Assembly (NCBI RefSeq): GCF_009389715.1
Contig: NC_052399.1
Location: forward strand, 5,086,585 to 5,150,584
DNA length: 64,000 bases
Direction: 5' to 3'
From: Phoenix dactylifera
Taxonomy: Eukaryota > Streptophyta > Magnoliopsida > Arecales > Arecaceae
Shown here in pieces: positions 5,900-64,000 of the stretch; the stretch's first letter is position 1, and each line of letters opens with the position of its first letter. The notes under the pieces are model-generated. The model searched no databases. It was not told the DNA's origin and worked only from the letters and a program-made list of their open reading frames with translations. The translations under genes were made by a program, and so were the position numbers.

Positions 5900-6937
5900 C
5901 TTTTCCTCTAGAAGGTGGCCTTGGCGCGGTTGCCGACATGCTCAATGCTGTGTAGACGTGGTATGAGCCTTTCCCCCTCATGTCCGGACTGTGGGGCGGA
6001 CGAGTCGGTAGATCATGTTCTATTCCACTGCGTATGGGCGAGAGTTGTTTGGAATTTGACTGGGATCCCGGGGGATACCTGGAGGAGTGGGGTTTTTTTC
6101 CTGGAGAAGGTTCGGCTTTGGGCTGGTGCTCCTCAGATGCGGGGATTGGCTATTAGGGCGTCTTGTACAGCGTACTAAATATGGCTAGCCAGGAATGCCC
6201 AGGTGTTTGGTGAGCGCCGGCTGTCCCTACGATTCGTGATGGAGCGGGTCTGTGCTCAGACGACAAAGATTATCCAGGTAGAGCCAGCTCATAGACCTTT
6301 GATAGCTCGGGACATCTGGGGATCCCACATTGCTTCGGCAGCTCCACACAGGGTATTCTTTACCTGGGAGCCCCCACCCCCGAGTTTCCTCAAGGTCAAT
6401 TTTGATAGCTCTGTCTTGGATGGTGGTAGGAGGGGAGGGGCCGGATTCGTTATTAGGGACCCGAGGTCTGATGTGGTGGCAGCAGGAGGCCGTCAGATTT
6501 TTGATATTTCTGTTCCAGGGGCAAAGTTGCGAGCGGCCTGGATGGGCCTGTCCTACGCGCGGCGGGTACTTCGGGCGAGCTCGGTTCTTCTGGAGGGTAA
6601 TTCAGCTACGGTGATTAGTTGGATCCGTAGGGGCCCGGTTAGTCACGGAGGTGCTCATCCTCTGCTTCACGACATTTGGATGATGGTGAGAGAGGGGGTC
6701 ACGCTACAGGCTATGCATGTATATCATGAGGCCAATGGGGGCGGCCGACTGGGTGGCCGCGTTTATTGCGAGCCACTCTGGAGGCACCCTATGGGCTGAG
6801 AAGAGAGAGATGCCCGGAGCACTTCGGGACATTTTGTATTCTGACTCTTTAGGGTGTATTTGTATCTGTGATATATGAAATGCCCGCTTTAGCAAAAAAA
6901 AAAAAAAGAAAAAAAAAAGAAAAAAAAGAAGAAGAAG
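5900..6937 (+). pseudogene. 5'-truncated LINE: RT zinc-binding tail, RNase H and poly(A)
   Basis: The first part (about 5950-6180) reads CPDCGADESVDHVLFHCVWAR, the CxxC-HxxxC zinc-binding region after a plant LINE reverse transcriptase. A stop follows at 6176-6178. The next frame (6203-6799) is RNase H-like: FLKVNFDSSVLDGGRRGG, then AGFVIRD and SATVISWIRRG. A small frameshift near 6735 moves ADWVAAFIASHSGG out of frame. The copy ends in a mixed A-rich tail (6894-6937), the mark of target-primed insertion. It is dead because of the truncation, stop and frameshift. Confidence 0.87.
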
Positions 6938-12764: not shown

Positions 12765-12910
12765 TCCCCCACCAACCCCAAATAAAGCATTCCTTCCAGC
12801 TCAAAAATAAACACCACCACCTCCTCCTCCCCTTCCTTCATCCATTATCATCATCCCTTCTCCTTCCATCCTTCTCTCTTCCTTGAATCCTTTTGAATTC
12901 TATTTTCATC

Positions 12911-13585
12911 ATGAGCCCTTCGTCGCGAGAGATCAGCGGCCCCCGCCCGGCTTCTCTCAAGATCCACAAGGACTCCCACCTTATCCACAAGCAATCCTCC
13001 TCCTCATCATCATCATCCTCCTCCTCCACCACCACCACCACCTCCTCCTCCAGCACCCACCACCACCACCAGCGCCACCACCCCGTCATCATCTACACAC
13101 ACTCCCCCAAGATCATCCACACGCAGGCCCGCGACTTCATGGCCCTGGTCCAGAAGCTGACCGGCCTCTCCCACTCCACCGACGACAACGACGACGCTGC
13201 CGCCGCCGCCGCCGCAAACAATCCCCCTCCCCCGCCATCCAACATTACACGCAAGAACGCCGACACCGTCCATGCGGCTACCGACGACTCGTCGTCATCG
13301 TCCGAGAACTACAGCATCGCCGGGGACGTCGTCCACCACGTCGGCTGCTCCTCGCTGCCATGTGCCGCTGCCATGTCGCCGCTTGGCTTCGACCCTTCAC
13401 CACCGTCTAACCCGTTTCTGTCGGAGATCCCGCTCTTCACGCCCAACTCCTCGGACTTCTTCTGCCCGCCGAGGTCCTTCTACAGATACCCGGAGTCGGC
13501 GGTGTTCTCGCCGTCCATTCCGAACATGGGCGGCGCCATCTCGCCTTCCATGATGGAGGCCATGAAGGCATTCCCGGAGTACTGA
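12911..13585 (+). CDS. VQ motif-containing protein (VQ8/VQ20-like), intronless
   Basis: The ORF from ATG at 12911 to TGA at 13583-13585 encodes 224 aa. Residues 9-27 (SGPRPASLKIHKDSHLIHK) and the ending MKAFPEY match the VQ8/VQ20-type clade. The VQ core FMALVQKLTG is at 76-85 and fits FxxxVQxLTG. VQ proteins are plant nuclear cofactors that bind WRKY factors. Residues 29-57 are Ser, Thr and His runs from trinucleotide repeats; Ala and Pro runs follow the core. The frame is open 18 bases further up, but that codon is TTG, so the first ATG is chosen. A single exon is normal for VQ genes. Confidence 0.93.
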   Translation: MSPSSREISGPRPASLKIHKDSHLIHKQSSSSSSSSSSSTTTTTSSSSTHHHHQRHHPVIIYTHSPKIIHTQARDFMALVQKLTGLSHSTDDNDDAAAAAAANNPPPPPSNITRKNADTVHAATDDSSSSSENYSIAGDVVHHVGCSSLPCAAAMSPLGFDPSPPSNPFLSEIPLFTPNSSDFFCPPRSFYRYPESAVFSPSIPNMGGAISPSMMEAMKAFPEY

Positions 13586-24700: not shown

Positions 24701-27700
24701 TCGCACGTACCTATATAATTATATAAAGCCATTTCAAGCCATGCACAATCAGGCCCATATGAACTAAAGAACACAATTATTTTTCATATCAGACTATGAA
24801 GATGATACAGTAATATAACAATAATCAGTTGCAGTAACACAAGGTCACTAGCAACATGCATAAAAGAAAATAGATAACAACATGTTGAATACCTTCATCA
24901 CTGCCAAATTGGTATCAATTCCATCTACTTTAACTCCATCAACCGTGGCTTTTGCTTGCTCTACCATTTTGTAGTTATCCCGGGACTCGCTAACAGCCTT
25001 CTCTAAGGAACTCATCTGCCCTACAACTAGTTCGCCAACAAGAAGCCTTTCATTATTAGCATCTAGAGACACCACCCCCAGATTTGACAAGATTGCTAGA
25101 GCAGATATAGAATACATTCCACTTCCAGAACTGAATTGGTTAACCCGATCCAACCCCCTAGAAGACATCATATCAGCAAGTGTTTCTAGTATCAGGTCAC
25201 CTCCAGGAAGCTGATCACAGAGGTTGAACATTAGAAGCGCCTCACATTTTATGGGCATTGAAGGAACTACCTCTTGAATAGCTTGTAAACGCAGAATGCC
25301 TAGTACAGCCTTCAACAGTGTTTCTTCCTTCTCAACACCCTTTATTTGGAACTTTCTAATAAAACTGTGGGCATAAAGAATTTCTTGCATAACGGCTAGC
25401 CAATAGTCGCGACGTGAATGACCTGTAAGCTCTGGAAACTCCATGATCACTGGTTCTGATCTACAAACAACATTAAAGGCATAATTAGTTACAATGCAAT
25501 TATCTTCTTCAAGAATATTCAACGCTTACTAACATCAACAATCCATAAATTATCCACCCAATACCCAAAGAAAAACAACATGGGGAAAAAAAAAAGTGGC
25601 AGTAAGGGAAGCTAAGAGTGCAACATTAGTAAACAGGCTGATAAATAATATGACTTACAAGGATATTGATTTGTACATGACTGCTTTGTCAAAAAGACGT
25701 GAACCCCATGGCCCACTCAACTCAGGCTTGATAACCTGCTTCAAATCATCTGCAAGTTCATATACTTTTGCTTTGTCATAAGTTACAACTCGTAGAGGTT
25801 CAAAGTAAAGAGCATGATCTGTCAGTGTTAATCTTCCTGCATTAATAAGGTTTAATAAGTAATCATATAGCAGCAAGAGGACATGAACTGTGAACAAAGA
25901 TTTGTGAATCTAAGTACCTAAAAATAAGCTGTCTATCCTAGATCATTAATCAATTACACGACCTATATTGTTCACCAAACCAAAAAGTAGAATGTTAGTA
26001 AGCACAGAAACCCACCAGGCCATATAGAAATTCCTACATGTTCAAGTACTGGTTGGGTAGTCAATGTTCCATCCAAATCAAGGATCCTTTCTCCTCTATC
26101 TGATCGAAGACCCGAAAGAAGAGATGATTCTGATTGAGTCTTCATTTTTTTTATTGCTCTGTATAAGGGGAAGAAATTCTAGAATTAGACACAATTTACC
26201 GATAATATGTTCAGTTATGAGCCAACACAGCATATGCATAACTGAAATATCATTGGGAATGAAGAAAGGTAAAAATCCTGCATATGCAAAAAATAAGACT
26301 TGAAAGTAGAGTGATAGACTAAAAGGCATTGTCTACTTTGAGAACACCGAAGTATCAAAACTTTTGTAAGTCTTTGGAATGTTTTACTCATCACCACTTA
26401 CTACAAGTAATCTATCAAATATAATCATGAAACTTCCAACATTAGACATTATGCTTGCCACAAACCTAACTTGGCATGAATATTCCCTCAACCAGTATGG
26501 ACAAATTATTCATGTTAATTAGTAAGTTAGCCATAATTAGCAGAAAAGACCACTGGACTTCATGCCTCAAGTAACATAAAGAGATGAAATTTTGTCCAAA
26601 AACAAGATAAGTTAGCATAAAGACATCCAAATATTTATTAAACTGCAAAAGAAATTACTTCAATTCATCAGGAAGTCACGAAAAGTTGCAAGAAGCTAAG
26701 ATACAATGCCATCAAACCCAATGAAACATTAACAAAAGTAGAGAAGTAGACAACATAATAGATAACAGTATATTATGCTGTGCGCTCTCGCGCAGGAGGG
26801 GCTGGTGCAGTTTATATCATGGATTTAAAATATATTAAATAATCATCCGAATACTCAACAAGGCGATGCCAGGGAATAAAAATTAGTGTCCTTTATCTTC
26901 ATTATCATGTGAAGAAGCAGGAACTAAGGGAAGAAAGAAGTAGAAGAAGTTGAATGGAGATTCTTGAACGTGGAAATCAGAAAGGTTAGGTCAGGAGTTT
27001 CCTAATTTAAGTTTTACGCTCATTTGAAGAAACATGTACAAAAGGAAGGAGTTACATTCTGTTTTTCACATTCCAACAGCTGCATTACAGCGCTATGGAT
27101 TTGGCTTCAACTTCTACATTTCAGTTATCATGCTTTGGTACAAGTATATTGCTCATGACAGTGAGGGTGGTTGTTTTCTTTATTTAGAAAAAATACAGGA
27201 GAGAGTTATGATCAATCTGGGCCACTCATTTTATCTGAGAACTAATATGAGTTCTGCTAATAAGATCAACCAGAGAGGCTATTTTCTTGGTTGTGCATAG
27301 TTTTCAGTGAAATGAAAAAAGCATGGAGCAAAGTGACATGAGAGGTAATTTGAAGGGGCATAATTGAACAGGTTCACAAAAATTGTTATAGATATGAGCA
27401 GTTAAAAGCATTAAAGTAGTGTTTTATTTTATCTGAGACACAGGATTTTCGACAAGCAATAGACCCATGAGAAAGAGCTAAACTATAATATAGTTTTACC
27501 GACCACATATGTTTAGGAGAAGGTGCAATTTTAATGCTATATCAAACATTCCAATAGCACCAGAACAGGGACAAAACCTCAATTCTTATCATGGAGAGAA
27601 GCTCCAAAGAATGGGATTATCTAACAGAAAGAATAAAACAAGAAAGTATACAATTGTAATTTTCCTGGAAAGTGAATAAGAAAATGGTTCCATTCAAATT

Positions 27701-29728: not shown

Positions 29729-30155
29729 CTCCTTCACCTCCCCCTCAAAACCCCAATGCTTGGACCGCTTTAAATTTCCAAATTCCAATGCCTCAGTCTC
29801 TACGATCTCGTTCTCTTCCCCCCTCCCCAACGAAAGCCCAACCTAAATCCTTCTCCGCTGAGATACCCATTTGGGCAAAAGGGTATTAGATTTCTCGGAG
29901 TAATAACCATTAGAAGAATGTCCTTGTTCTTGCTTCTACTGGGATTTGAAGGAAGATTGTAGGGAAAGAAACGGATAGGGCAAAAGAGGAAAGGGTGGGC
30001 GGACGCAAAGCGGCGAGATTTTATTCGGGGCGCGGGGCCGCCGTAAGGAAAACCAAATGCTGAGTGGTTTTGTTTTATGACTGCGGTTTTGGCACAGCGA
30101 CAGGTATGCTGGAAAAAAAGAAGATTGGGGCGGTTGCTGGAGGGGCTTCTTTGGG

Positions 30156-30862
30156 GGTAGTTCTATATACACCCCCCCTATTGCTCAGGACACCCCCCAA
30201 AAACCAAAAAAAAAATACCCAAACTAATCTTTAGTGTAATTACCATATTGCCCTTGAAATTTTCTCATACACCCCCCCTTTCTCCTCCTCCGTTTCGTTT
30301 TGAAAAGAAAAAAAAAACACCCCTCAAACCCCCCTTAAACCCCTCCTCCCCCGTTCCCCCTTCTCCCTCTCGTCGCCGGCATTCTCCCGATCTCCGACCA
30401 CCTCGCCAACCGAACAGATCTGTTCGGCTGCACAGTGCCGAACAGAAGGCTTCTGTCCGGCACTGTTCAGCCGAACAGAAGCCTTTTGTTCGGCGATCCA
30501 GTGCCGAACGGAGCACGAACCGTGAAAAAAAAAAATTTCGGGAGAAGCCGGCGAGGTGGTTCCGGGAGAAGCCGGCGAGGTGGTCGGAGATCGGGAGAAT
30601 GCCGGCGACGAGAGGGAGAAGGGAGAACGGGGGGGTTTTGGGCGTTGGCGAGGTGTTTTGCAGGGGAAGAGCGGGGTGGGGGGGGTTGGGGGGTGTAGAG
30701 AGCAATTTAGGTGAGGGGGTGGGGAGGGTGGGGGGTAATTTAGGAATTTTTAATTTTTTAGGGGTGTCCTTAGCAAATGGGGGGGTGTAGAGTGTATTTA
30801 ATTTTTTTTTAATTTTTGGGGGGTGTCCTGAGCGATAGGGGGGGGTGTATATAGAACCAGCC
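30156..30862. mobile_element. Foldback MITE, copy 1, with 10-bp target duplication
   Basis: The unit starts GGTAGTTCTATATACACC and ends with the inverse of GGCTGGTTCTATATACACC. CTTCTTTGGG flanks it perfectly (30146-30155 and 30863-30872). Both arms carry matching blocks: the C-run/G-run terminus, an A-rich spacer, the CGCCGGCATTCTCCCGATC block and its inverse, and a centre of CTGTTCGGC-type words in both directions. Compared with copy 2 (35872-36758), about 150-190 bp of the left arm near 30409 is missing. A 9-10-bp duplication suggests a Mutator-type transposase source. Apparent ORFs inside are by-products of repeats. Confidence 0.87.
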
Positions 30863-30872
30863 CTTCTTTGGG

Positions 30873-35861: not shown

Positions 35862-35871
35862 ACGGTGCAGG

Positions 35872-36758
35872 GGTAGTTCTATATACACCCCCCCTATTGC
35901 TCAGGACACCCCCCAAAAACCAAAAAAAAAATACCCAAACTAACCTTTAGTGTAATTACCATATTACCCTTGAAATTTTCTCATACACCCCCCTTCCTCC
36001 TCCTCCGTTTCGTTTTGAAAAGAAAAAAAAAAAACACCCCTCAAACCCCCCTTAAACCCCTCCTCCCCCGTTCCCCCTTCTCCCTCTCGTCGCCGGCATT
36101 CTCCCGATCTCCGACCACCTCGCCGGCTTCTCCCGGAACCACCTCGCCGGCTTCTCCCGAAATTTTTTTTTTTCACGGTTCGTGCTCCGTTCGGCACTGG
36201 ATCGCCGAACAAAAGGCTTCTGTTCGGCTGAACAGTGCCGAACAGAAGCCTTCTGTTCGGCAACCCTCAACCGAACAGATCTGTTCGGCTGCACAGTGCC
36301 GAACAGAAGGCTTCTGTCCGGCACTGTTCAGCCGAACAGAAGGCTTCTGTCCGGCACTGTTCAGCCGAACAGAAGCCTTTTGTTCGGCGATCCAGTGCCG
36401 AACGGAGCACGAACCGTGAAAAAAAAAAATTTCGGGAGAAGCCGGCGAGGTGGTTCCGGGAGAAGTCGGCGAGGTGGTCGGAGATCGGGAGAATGCCGGT
36501 GACGAGAGGGAGAAGGGGGAACGGGGGGGTTTTGGGCGTTGGCGAGGTGTTTTGGAGGGGAAGAGCGGGGTGGGGGGGGGGGTTGGGGGGTGTAGAGAGC
36601 AATTTAGGTGAGGGGGTGGGGAGGGTGGGGGGTAATTTAGGAATTTTTAATTTTTTAGGGGTGTCCTTAGCAAATGGGGGGGTGTAGAGAGTATTTAATT
36701 TTTTTTTAATTTTTGGGGGGTGTCCTGAGCAATAGGGGGGGTGTATATAGAACCACCC
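35872..36758. mobile_element. Foldback MITE, copy 2 (full-length), with 10-bp target duplication
   Basis: It starts GGTAGTTCTATATACACC and ends ATATAGAACCACCC, flanked by a perfect ACGGTGCAGG (35862-35871 and 36759-36768). The element is 887 bp and folds on itself almost end to end: terminal C-run against G-run, CGCCGGCTTCTCCC against its inverse, TTCACGGTTCGTGCTCCG against its inverse. The centre is a run of CTGTTCGGC / GCCGAACAG words with a repeated unit around 36300-36365. It is highly similar to copy 1, so the family moved recently. No transposase is encoded. Confidence 0.9.
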
Positions 36759-37649: not shown

Positions 37650-38844
37650 CAGGGCTGGAAGTGGGCTCGGGCCGGCCCGAAGCCCATCGGGTCGGGCCGC
37701 ATGCGGGCCGGGCTATGGGCTAGACCCAATGAATTTCGAGCCGGGCTCGGGCTGCAAACTTAAGCCCAATTTTATTTCGGGCCGGGCTCGGGTTTCCTAT
37801 TGGCCCGGCCCGGGCCCGGACCAAGCCCGAGCCCAATGTCAGCCCGAACCGAAATCAACCACGGCCCGAAATCGACCACGGCCCAAATTGGGTATTTGGC
37901 CATTTGGGTAACCGGGTTACGGGATTTGGGGATTTTTTGCGGTTGCCGAATCGCGATTTGCAGAGGCTCGTCGTCGTCGTCGTCTAGGGTCCGGTGGTGG
38001 CGTGGGGCTCGTCGTCGTCAGGTTCGTCTAGGCCGGTGAACCTGGGGATCACCATCGATTCGCCTTCGGCTTCCTCCTAAATGCTGTCAAGAACTCCTCG
38101 CTCCCATTAACAGCGCAACGGCGAAACACGAAACCCGTCGCCTGTGCCGGGTCCGTCCGCCCCTGCGCCATCACGGCGTCGCTACCGGACTTCCCCGGCC
38201 CCTCCGCCCACGTCACCATCTCGAGGAGACATTCGTCAAACACGGCGGTGGCGTTGCCGAAGACGAAATCGACGGTGCCGGAGATACGGCAGCGGCAGTA
38301 TAGCTGCCGGAGGGACCGCGCATAGAGAGTATCCTGGTGGCCGTCGGCAGCGCGGCCGCGAGGGAGGGCAGTGGCGGCGGCGGCGAGGCGGCGGTCGGAG
38401 AGGGAGAGGTGCTCGAGGCAGTTGCGGGCGGCATTGGAGCGGTCAAGGTTGGAGGAGGCGGCGGCGAGGATGGACTGGACGAGGGAGCGGGCGGTAGGGA
38501 GGGCGGTGGAGGAGACGGAGATCCTGAAATCCTACAGAAGCCACCTGATCCCCAGGTTCGTTGGCCTCCCTACAGAAGCGATCCTGGAAGTGCTCGGACT
38601 CGGCCTCTGTTCTTATAGCCCTTCCCATGAAGGACTTACAGATGCTTCAAGTTTTCTCCCAATTGGGCTATCAGGAAACAGTGCTCGGGCTATAAGTTTT
38701 CTTCCACAATCGGGCTGGCCCAATCGAGCTCGGGCCGATTTTCAATAATACTATTCGGGCCTAGGCCCGGCTCGAAGCCCGGAAAATAAATTCGGGCTGG
38801 GCTTGGGTAGGGGTGTGGCCCGGCCCGGCCCACTTCCAGCCCTA
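37650..38844 (-). mobile_element. Non-autonomous hAT-type element carrying a pectinesterase gene piece
   Basis: The left end CAGGGCTGGAAGTGGGC and the reverse complement of the right end TAGGGCTGGAAGTGGGC match at 16 of 17 bases. Flanks CACCTACC (37642-37649) and CACTTACC (38845-38852) agree at 7 of 8, an 8-bp hAT-like duplication. Subterminal zones on both sides are dense in GGGCCGGGC/GCCCGGCCC words. The core (about 38055-38620) is derived from a host gene; no transposase is present. It lies about 1.3 kb upstream of the TMEM214-like gene. Confidence 0.85.
38055..38620 (-). pseudogene. Rearranged pectinesterase/pectinesterase inhibitor fragment
   Basis: Read on the minus strand, 38520-38340 gives the inhibitor-domain text ARSLVQSILAAASSNLDRSN and NCLEHLSLSDRRL. 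Near 38332 this passes without a stop into catalytic-domain text QDTLYARSLRQLYC, then GTVDFVFGNATAVF and FVFRRCAVNGSEEF. Plant type I enzymes have the linker and the first part of the catalytic domain between these blocks, so a couple of hundred residues are missing at the junction. The Asp in GTVDF is kept. A stop follows RKPKANRW. It is a captured, internally deleted piece, not a working enzyme. Confidence 0.85.
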
Positions 38845-59500: not shown

Positions 59501-61836
59501 AAAAATTGGTACAAATAATTTCATGGAAAGAGGTAAGAGAAGTAGATGTCTCAACCATTCTTATTTATTTAAGGATGTTTAGGTGTCAACTGGTGAGTAA
59601 AGATGAGACTACCCTCATAAATTCTTATATTCATCTGTAAATGAAATAGTATCAGAACAAACTCTAAGCTCCATGACAACAGCAATAATCAGTGAATGAT
59701 GGAATAATATCGGAAATGTGATTTCTGGCGCTATACGGGATCAGGCAATAAGGAGTGGCCATAACTGCTAATGTAAGATCTGATGCCATGTTTACTTGAG
59801 AGATTGACTTGATCCAACTTCTGTGGTCTGGAATGTGTTTGCTGATATTGTCAAGAAGAAGATCCATAGGTTCTGGAAAATGTTTCATGGAAACAACCAA
59901 ATTGGTTATGAAGATGAGAGGATGGCATCATGTCAATACAGGTTCTTTTTTTCCCCCAGGGGCTGTGTACGTGCATGTGCATGAGTGTTGTGGGTGGGTG
60001 TTGGGGGAAGCGGTTGGAGTGATGGTTTACATAAGGCCCATAGACAATGGGCTACACCTACACAGTACAGGGTAGCCATCCCACAAATTCTTCTAATCCT
60101 CGGAATGGCGGTGAAGGCGAGATTTGAACAAAGGTCTTTGGTACAATTATCAAGAGATATTAGCAACCTGGTAAGCTGACATCTTCCTATTGTGTACATC
60201 TAGTTCAACAGTACATGATCATGAATGAGTCAGAAATTCTGCACCATGGTGCTTTCTTGAAGCTTTCATGAAGTTTCCATGACTTCTTTCGCTTGCACTC
60301 TATGAAACTTGAGGAAAAGTCTGTGTTTATGTATTTTCTTAATGTACAACAAAACATTCGCAATTTCATACTAACTTACTCTTTCATGTGTAGAATCCAT
60401 GATATGACTCTAATAAGCAGGAGGAGGCTGAGCATAGAAATAAAAACATCAAAAACATAGGCATAAGCAATAAAATAGGTGATGCTCTCTTTTTGATGGT
60501 TATCGTTCTATATACTGATGTTTTCTGCCTCCTCTATTGTGAAACTACGGGAAGCAATCTGTCTAACAAGCACCTGGTTCCAGTGCTGGTTTTCATGTCC
60601 ACGTCAACATGAGACCTTTATCACATGAATTTTGCATGACACATACAATTCTTCATGGTCTCTGCAATGTAAAAAGAATGAGAGCAAGGCAAGATTTTAA
60701 GGACATTCTTCTCTAATATCTTTCACAAGACTATATCATATGTACGTTGCTCACATTCTGTTTTACATTTACTCTTATAAGAAAGAATTGTGATTTTGCA
60801 TGGTCATTGAAATTTTTTTTCCTGAAGTAAGAATGTGCTGATCCTACTAGATGGCTAGCTCTATGCTAGGCGTTGCTGCTTTTTGACATCATGTTGCTGA
60901 GCACCAATCAACTTTTTATTTTTTGGTTTTTTCCACTGGAGAATAAAGATATTTACCATAACAGGGATTACGACTTCGCAAATTGCCAGCAGTGCTTTCA
61001 CCTGGGGCACAGTTGCAGTTCTTCCATTCTACACTCTGATGGTTCTGGCACCTAATGCCAAACTTGTGAGTATAATTTGTAGATTTATGAAGTGAATATG
61101 ATTTCAAATTGACCAGTGTATGAGCATCTCAATACATGCATGTTCTACTTGAATTTGTATATTGACTGGATTTCTTAATTGCCAAAACTCAGACTAAAAG
61201 AACTATGGAAAGCAGCACTCCTTTTGTTATTCTCGGAGTTCTGTATGCATACCTTCTTCATCTGTCATGGACTCCTGACAAATTAGGTTCGATGTTTGCA
61301 AGTAAATACTGGCTGCCAGAGGTTCGTATTCAGTTTATGCTGTACAGTCTTGAATTAATCCTTGCAGTATATCTTTGATCTGGCACATCTGTCATGCTAT
61401 CTGCAGTTACCTGGCATAGCAAAAATGTTTACAAATGAAATGACTCTGGCTTCTGCATGGATTCACTTACTGGCTGTAGACCTTTTCGCAGCAAGGTCTG
61501 AATTTTGCTACTCTTCAAATCTTCTCTCTCCTTTTTGTGCTGCTTTCACTGCTCCCCTCAATCTCAAGTTCTGTCCAATCTCTACACCGAACAAAGAGAA
61601 TGATGCATCATCTCCTATTTTTCTGTGTTTTGTATAGAGTAGCCCATTCTTTTTTCAGTACAGAAATTCTTATGCACCCTGCGTTTTTGTCATCCAGGCA
61701 GGTATTTCATGATGGTCTGAAGAACAAAGTAGAGACCCGACATTCAGTTTCTTTATGCCTTCTTTCCTGCCCGATTGGAATTGCTACTCATGCCATCACT
61801 AAGATACTAACAAAGAGGGCAAATCGATCACATTGA
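56598..61836 (+). CDS. ABA4: ABA4, neoxanthin synthesis protein (DUF4281), six exons
   Basis: Coding exons: 56598-56645, 56833-57040, 60965-61065, 61193-61321, 61407-61495, 61698-61836, all GT-AG, giving 237 aa. ABA4 is a chloroplast membrane protein required to convert violaxanthin to neoxanthin, a precursor of abscisic acid. Family text is clear: [20 protein letters not shown], then [20 protein letters not shown] and [16 protein letters not shown]. Four hydrophobic segments lie near residues 100-115, 129-145, 174-191 and 208-227. The first ~85 residues are transit-peptide-like and weakly conserved. Exon 1 is least certain; translation could start at the ATG at 56854 in exon 2. Intron 2 is 3.9 kb. 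Confidence 0.93.
57041..60964 (+). other. ABA4 intron 2
   Basis: This 3.9-kb intron has no coding content. It holds a possible minus-strand SINE near 59933-60190. Confidence 0.75.
59933..60190 (-). mobile_element. Possible tRNA-derived SINE in ABA4 intron 2
   Basis: On the minus strand, CAGCTTACCAGG (near 60180-60168) resembles box A and GTTCAAATCTC (near 60130-60119) box B, at about tRNA spacing. The other end reads CCCCTGGGGGAAAAAAAGAAC, which could be the A tail. It resembles Au-type plant SINEs as I remember them. No target duplication was found, so support is moderate. It differs from the family at 2088 and 34378. Confidence 0.5.
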
Positions 61837-62270: not shown

Positions 62271-63798
62271 TTAAGTTCTATAAGGTAAATATTTTATTTC
62301 CTCTTTGAGTTCTATCCCAAACATTTGATCGACTCTCTCTTTGACATGGTTAATCAGTGCAAGCATATCTGCCGAAGTGGACCCATTGAAGTTGATGAAG
62401 AAATTGGCATGAACCTTGGAAACCTTGGCACCACCTATCTCAAGCCCTTTGAGCCCAGCAAACTCGATTAGCTCTCCCGCCGATATTCCCATTCCCAGGG
62501 GATTCCGAAACACGGACCCGGCGCTGCGCTCTCCAATTGGTTGGCTCTTCCTCCGCCTGCATTTTTTCATACAGCTTACGATTCCACCGAAAACGAAAAA
62601 CGAAGAGCAACGACAATAAGTTGCAAATAAATCAGAAAAATTAGCTGAATAATTGATCTATGAATTATTTATATACGATGCATAAGACCGATAATTTCAT
62701 TTAATTAGTTAATAAAATCTAACGTCTGCTCGGATCGATCCAATACAATTCGTGCATCCCTACTCAAAAGTGCAGCTCTAGGAGGAGACTAACCAGAAAT
62801 AAATGGATGGATTCAACCTCACCTCTCCAAGAAGGCCCTCTGCCGCTCCCTCGTTCTCTCGGCCGGCACCAACCGGAACGTGACCGCCGCAATGGCGGCC
62901 AAGTCCTTCATCCGTTGGAAGGTCGAGCACCGATATCCGAAGGCCATGTCGCTCCTCCTCAGCACCCTGAAGTCTCCATCCACGGTGACCATCTCCACGC
63001 TATCAATCACATCTCCAGTCTCCTGCCGCAAATTACACAACCGCTGAGATCAGATGGACAGAAAGAAAGCCGAACACGATAAAGAAACCAAGGCAGATTA
63101 ATGAATTCACCTGCCCACCAGCTCCGGCATTCATGAAGACAGCCCCGCCGACCGTCCCCGGGATGCCGCCGGCGAACTCGAGGCCCGAGAACCCCGCGAT
63201 GGAGCAGCGCACTCCGAGGCGGTTGAATGGGTATCCGCTGCCAACCCGATAGACGCCGGGCTCGACCACTTGGAATTGGTCGAGGCGGTTGAGCAAGACA
63301 AAGCCGTCGAAGCCGCGGTCGTCGAAGAGGCAATTGGAGCCCTTGCCGAGGATCAACAGGGGAATGGACCTCGCCCGGCAGTAGCTGCAAAAAAAAAAAA
63401 TAGCGTGAGTTACGCGGCCGACGAGCGTATGGTGTTTGGTCCGAAGGTGGTACCGACCGGATGGCGGCGACGAGCTGGGAGGGCCGGGAGACTTGGAGGA
63501 AGTAGCTGCAAGGGCCGCCGATGCCCCAGCTGCCGAGCTCCTTGAGATGCTTTTGGTTTCGAAGGATGCATTGCTCGACGAGCGATTGCTCTCGTCGGTC
63601 ATCTAGCGAAGGTATGGAGGTCAGGGAGAGCTCTTCTTTGATGGATAGAGCATTTGAGGTGTTTGAGGGGAGGAGGAGTTGGTGTTGGGGGAAGAGGAGA
63701 GAGGAGCTTTTAGCTCTCAAAGAGCCATTTGGGTTGGCTTGAGTGGGGGAAGAAATGAGGGGAGACGAGGGGATAGAAAACAACGCCATGCTTCTCAT
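62271..63798 (-). CDS. MURB: Plastid-targeted MurB (UDP-N-acetylenolpyruvoylglucosamine reductase), four exons
   Basis: Coding exons: 63458-63798, 63111-63384, 62823-63022, 62271-62556; all GT-AG, 366 aa. MurB is the FAD- and NADPH-dependent reductase making UDP-MurNAc for peptidoglycan. FAD-site motifs are LGKGSN (126-131) and GGIPGTVGGA (186-195). FGYRCSTF (Tyr235) and GSVFRNP (Ser286, the proton donor position) are intact, as is the C-terminal FGIELKEEI with the expected acidic residues. These fit type II MurB. Residues 1-60 are rich in Ser, Pro and Leu, like a chloroplast transit peptide. The frame is open further to an ATG at 63984, adding 62 codons; the ATG at 63798 is chosen because it starts the transit-like sequence. 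Confidence 0.94.
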
Positions 63799-64000
63799 TC
63801 TCCTCTCCCCTCTCGCTTCTTTCTTCTTTCTTGGGCTCTTAAGCCTCAGGCCATAGGAACCATTCCATCTATTTCTAGTTAGTTCTCTATTTTTTTTTTT
63901 TTTTTCATTCTGAAATGGAGAGTCTCTGAAGCCATAGATCAAACACGGAGGCCGCGCAGTGCAAAATACTGCGGATGGTTGCATTCATCTCTTTCTCGTG
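63799..64000 (-). promoter_or_regulatory. 5' leader/upstream region of MurB
   Basis: This stretch has a run of T (plus strand) near 63890 and the in-frame upstream ATG at 63984. No TATA box was identified before the window edge. Confidence 0.35.

Follow-up and report, generated by a model that had tools for sequence, protein, structure and literature searches.

An intact nuclear MurB gene with a putative plastid transit peptide in Phoenix dactylifera

Results

Gene structure and genomic setting

The stretch of Phoenix dactylifera DNA analysed here (64,000 nt, hereafter the window) carries a reverse-strand gene whose coding sequence corresponds exactly to positions 62271-63798, with the ATG at 63798 and a stop codon ending at 62271 (Table 1). 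Its four exons, of 341, 274, 200 and 286 nt, are separated by three GT-AG introns and encode a product of 366 amino acids, with no internal stop. The coding sequence has a third-position GC of 0.69 overall, and the GC of introns 1, 2 and 3 is 0.51, 0.43 and 0.35, respectively. An initial annotation of this DNA had described exons joining in frame into an intact MurB, and our reading agrees with it down to the coordinates.

Table 1. Features mapped in the window, with strand and basis or remarks
Feature	Position	Strand	Remarks
Reverse-transcriptase-like ORF (PF13456, RVT_3)	6179-6796	+	perhaps a retroelement remnant
VQ-motif protein ORF (PF05678)	12887-13582	+	
DUF639 (PF04842) ORF	24851-25525	-	partial match to this plant family
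Pectinesterase fragment (PF01095)	38052-38531	-	
ABA4-like gene (PF14108)	60967-61836 (mapped part)	+	several short exons; convergent with MurB, whose stop codon lies about 435 nt away
MurB exon 4	62271-62556	-	most of MurB_C; Ser286, Glu358 (E. coli Ser229, Glu325); stop codon
MurB intron 3	62557-62822	-	266 nt, GT-AG, phase 2
MurB exon 3	62823-63022	-	Tyr235-Arg236, aligned with E. coli Tyr158-Arg159
MurB intron 2	63023-63110	-	88 nt, GT-AG, phase 0
MurB exon 2	63111-63384	-	FAD-binding core; GKGSN and GIPGTVGGAVFMNAGA stretches
MurB intron 1	63385-63457	-	73 nt, GT-AG, phase 2
MurB exon 1	63458-63798	-	encodes the putative transit peptide and the beginning of the FAD domain; from the spliced reading and composition

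The splice sites differ in how tightly they are fixed by the reading frame. The donor of intron 1 (CCG/GTCGGT) is a weak consensus site, and it is the sole GT that gives a stop-free frame in a scan of 60 nt to either side; one alternative acceptor of this intron is also stop-free, with a product of 361 amino acids. For introns 2 and 3, 19 and 17 GT-AG pairs (the chosen pairs counted in) leave the frame open, so that an open frame alone cannot fix these introns, and the donors CAG/GTGAAT and GAG/GTGAGG were preferred for their agreement with the donor consensus and for the unbroken match to MurB that they give. As in-frame ATGs occur also at 63984, upstream, and at 63789, the chosen start is a candidate. 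The chosen ATG stands 202 nt from the end of the window on its upstream side, and little of the promoter is therefore in view.

Elsewhere in the window, seven of nine sequences scanned matched a family, two of these seven being readings of the ABA4-like gene, and two matched none. The ABA4-like gene, when its fragments were joined by hand, matched its family with an E value of 7.1e-36, and a single-ORF reading scored 25.8 bits, under the cut-off of 27; a PGA2 match likewise fell below its cut-off. The matches to DUF639, VQ, ABA4-like and pectinesterase families indicate a land plant, plausibly a flowering plant. A search for tRNA genes with ARAGORN found none. The window also holds two copies of a repeat (30154-30863 and 35870-36758), which share direct pieces of 430 and 256 nt with 97.4% and 97.7% identity (blastn) and further inverted pieces.

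Assignment to the MurB family

The predicted protein contains FAD_binding_4 (PF01565, residues 99-224, E 8.2e-21) followed by MurB_C (PF02873, residues 263-361, E 8.9e-32), the domain order of MurB. Two of the seven NCBIfam MurB models listed exceed their curated cut-offs, namely PRK13905 (288.9 bits against 259, E 3.3e-86) and TIGR00179 (214.3 bits against 144.5), and the remaining five match below theirs. Among 15 sequence matches in the PDB, 13 are MurBs, and these rank best; the two weakest are a FAD-binding protein (8ot8, E 8.9e-06) and xylitol oxidase (2vfr, E 2.7e-04). On this evidence the match lies far above chance, and the protein encoded at 62271-63798 is, by its sequence, MurB (UDP-N-acetylmuramate dehydrogenase).

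An identity as some other FAD oxidase, a grouping that, in a fold search, the initial annotation had named as fatal to its reading, was rejected on sequence: MurB_C is present, the 13 best PDB matches are MurBs, and proteins outside the family appear only as the two weakest.

Catalytic and substrate-binding residues

In the alignment with E. coli MurB (92 identical of 285 aligned residues), Tyr235, Arg236, Ser286, Asn290 and Glu358 of the plant protein correspond to Tyr158, Arg159, Ser229, Asn233 and Glu325. Of these E. coli residues, Tyr158 also has a role. Ser229 is the general acid according to the title of a reference in PMC12844806, an extract of which gives Arg159, Glu325, Tyr190, Lys217 and Asn233 as contacts; contacts of an inhibitor, in the extract of PMC10058398, are Ser229, Tyr190, Asn233 and Gln288. 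The catalytic Ser and the C-terminal acidic residue, which had been described earlier as kept, are thus present as Ser286 and Glu358.

Two further positions differ from E. coli. The column of Lys217 holds Ser in the plant protein, and Thr in 4pyt and Val in 9dtk (PDB alignments compared by eye), and that of Gln288 holds His, as it does in S. aureus MurB. Because both positions vary among bacterial MurBs, neither substitution would count as a clear loss. The column of Tyr190 (Gln266 in the plant protein, Met in S. aureus) falls in a gapped part of the alignment and is uninformative.

In overall layout the plant protein resembles S. aureus MurB (PDB 1hsk; 96 identical of 278 aligned residues, the aligned sequence being residues 32-312 of the PDB match). 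Both are without two stretches that are peculiar to E. coli MurB in this comparison, one of 17 residues before and one of 24 residues after the catalytic Ser motif. The plant protein differs from its S. aureus counterpart in carrying about 80 additional residues at the N-terminus and in being encoded by a gene with introns.

The N-terminus

The first 50 residues contain 28% Ser+Thr, three Lys+Arg and neither Asp nor Glu, whereas residues 71-366 contain 9% Ser+Thr and 29 acidic residues. A Ser-rich, acid-free composition of this kind is found in plastid transit peptides. The composition supports designating the N-terminus as a putative plastid transit peptide; of the earlier claim to such a peptide, the plastid-like character of the N-terminus stands, and the claim is restated here as one drawn from composition. 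Representative orthologues of the pathway carry predicted transit peptides, according to an extract of PMC4815162.

Constraint on the reading frame

Neutral evolution of the same gene was simulated with substitutions only (n = 2000). The fraction of copies left stop-free fell from 56.75% at 0.02 and 22.75% at 0.05 substitutions per site to 5.65% at 0.1, 0.25% (5 copies) at 0.2 and 0.1% at 0.3. Since only 5 of 2000 copies remained stop-free at 0.2 substitutions per site, the MurB coding sequence is likely under constraint, unless that constraint ended recently. The simulation speaks to constraint on the reading frame and not to expression.

Prokaryotic relatives

A short-pattern scan of prokaryote genome contigs for MurB yielded 62 candidate stretches, of which three were confirmed, with a best identity of 36%; this is too few for a tree of plant MurB origin. 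Two readings from Candidatus Gracilibacteria (L002 and L003) end early under the standard code, with 10 identities in 48 aligned residues and 11 in 53, and were left out of the MurB comparison. Gracilibacteria read TGA as Gly.

Discussion

The locus is a real and ordinary plant MurB gene, of a kind already known. The explanation we favor, with a probability of roughly 0.85, is that it is a nuclear gene for a retained, plastid-targeted reductase that forms UDP-MurNAc (UDP-N-acetylenolpyruvoylglucosamine reductase) in the plastid peptidoglycan pathway. Synthesis in the cytosol would yield a MurB precursor for import into the plastid, where NADPH would reduce the FAD bound to the enzyme; the resulting FADH2 would in turn reduce UDP-GlcNAc-enolpyruvate, the product of MurA, to UDP-MurNAc, with Ser286 as the probable general acid, and UDP-MurNAc would then enter the retained pathway. 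The gene structure, the family and the residues are shown above; that the gene is expressed, that its product is imported and active and that partner genes are present is inferred. The initial annotation had left a choice between a retained plastid wall step and a new substrate. Of these the wall step is the more likely and fits published inventories; the new substrate lacks positive evidence, most of the mapped substrate residues being those of an ordinary MurB.

These inventories, which are cited here from extracts, already place near-complete pathways in flowering plants. In 2016 the full gene complement except PBP was reported for taxa across the streptophytes; every pathway gene had evidence of expression, but this evidence did not come from every species (PMC4815162). 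Nine of the ten pathway genes are given for several mono- and dicotyledonous genomes, papaya and apple being named (PMC9954125). For Asparagus and Citrus, one extract, in which the toolkit counts MurA to MurG, describes a full set including PBP-family orthologues (PMC10784329), and another describes nine genes, the bifunctional PBP being replaced by a transglycosylase domain alone (PMC12681378); the two disagree over PBP and agree on the early steps. MurB is placed among the nine because the inventories speak of all genes except PBP; the extracts do not list MurB separately for each plant. The surprise that had been implied in an intact MurB from a flowering plant is thereby not supported, nine of ten genes having been published for several monocots and dicots, so that a number of flowering plants should have such a gene. 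The statement in the initial annotation that Arabidopsis keeps only part of the pathway was correct, the retained genes being MurE, MraY, MurG and Ddl (PMC9954125, PMC4815162); according to the same extracts, seed plants lacking the full set usually retain four genes, which do not include MurB. Given this published pattern, Phoenix dactylifera likely keeps the nine-gene set. By inference, the gene resembles the MurB of the plastid pathway in moss, gymnosperms and nine-gene flowering plants in being nuclear and in sharing a transit-peptide-like N-terminus, the MurB domains and the catalytic residues.

Other readings of the locus keep the gene and change its history or its use. The protein might be made and imported but repurposed, acting as a FAD reductase on another plastid substrate after other early Mur genes were lost. 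MurE of angiosperms provides a precedent, since in Arabidopsis and maize it has a part in the expression of plastid genes (extracts of PMC12681378 and PMC9434261); yet most of the mapped substrate and catalytic residues of the present protein are those of an ordinary MurB, two equivalog cut-offs are passed, and the four genes usually left in seed plants short of the full set are, in the published extracts, without MurB, and we consider repurposing unlikely. That the other early Mur genes are gone and MurB alone persists for a new plastid reaction seems very unlikely. The gene could also have been silenced recently, its coding sequence still intact but its expression gone, on the way to the loss seen in many other flowering plants. 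Such a course would be in keeping with losses of pathway genes in multiple independent events (PMC4815162, in part), with the pseudogenes suggested among plant Mur genes (Bjorn 2020, as cited in the extract of PMC12681378) and with the weak donor of intron 1. It is nonetheless rendered quite unlikely by 366 codons without a stop or frameshift; of the 2000 simulated copies, 5.65% were still free of stops at 0.1 neutral substitutions per site.

A bacterial source must be weighed as well, the MurB family being bacterial. Recent transfer or contamination is however opposed by three introns with splice signals, by the plant-type genes in the neighborhood and by the distance to prokaryotic sequences: 83 plasmid records were matched, none with at least 60% identity and the best with 40.5% among the 25 matches listed, and the best of the three loci from the short-pattern search of genome contigs reached the 36% noted above. 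We regard this explanation as extremely improbable. On a deeper time scale, most plant peptidoglycan enzymes are attributed to bacteria other than cyanobacteria, MurA and MraY being rare exceptions (PMC8227023, from an extract).

The persistence of the early steps in the absence of a known cross-linking enzyme is a question that a single MurB gene cannot settle. The locus does add one intact gene to the published pattern, in which some plants keep a near-complete plastid pathway while their relatives have lost its early steps.
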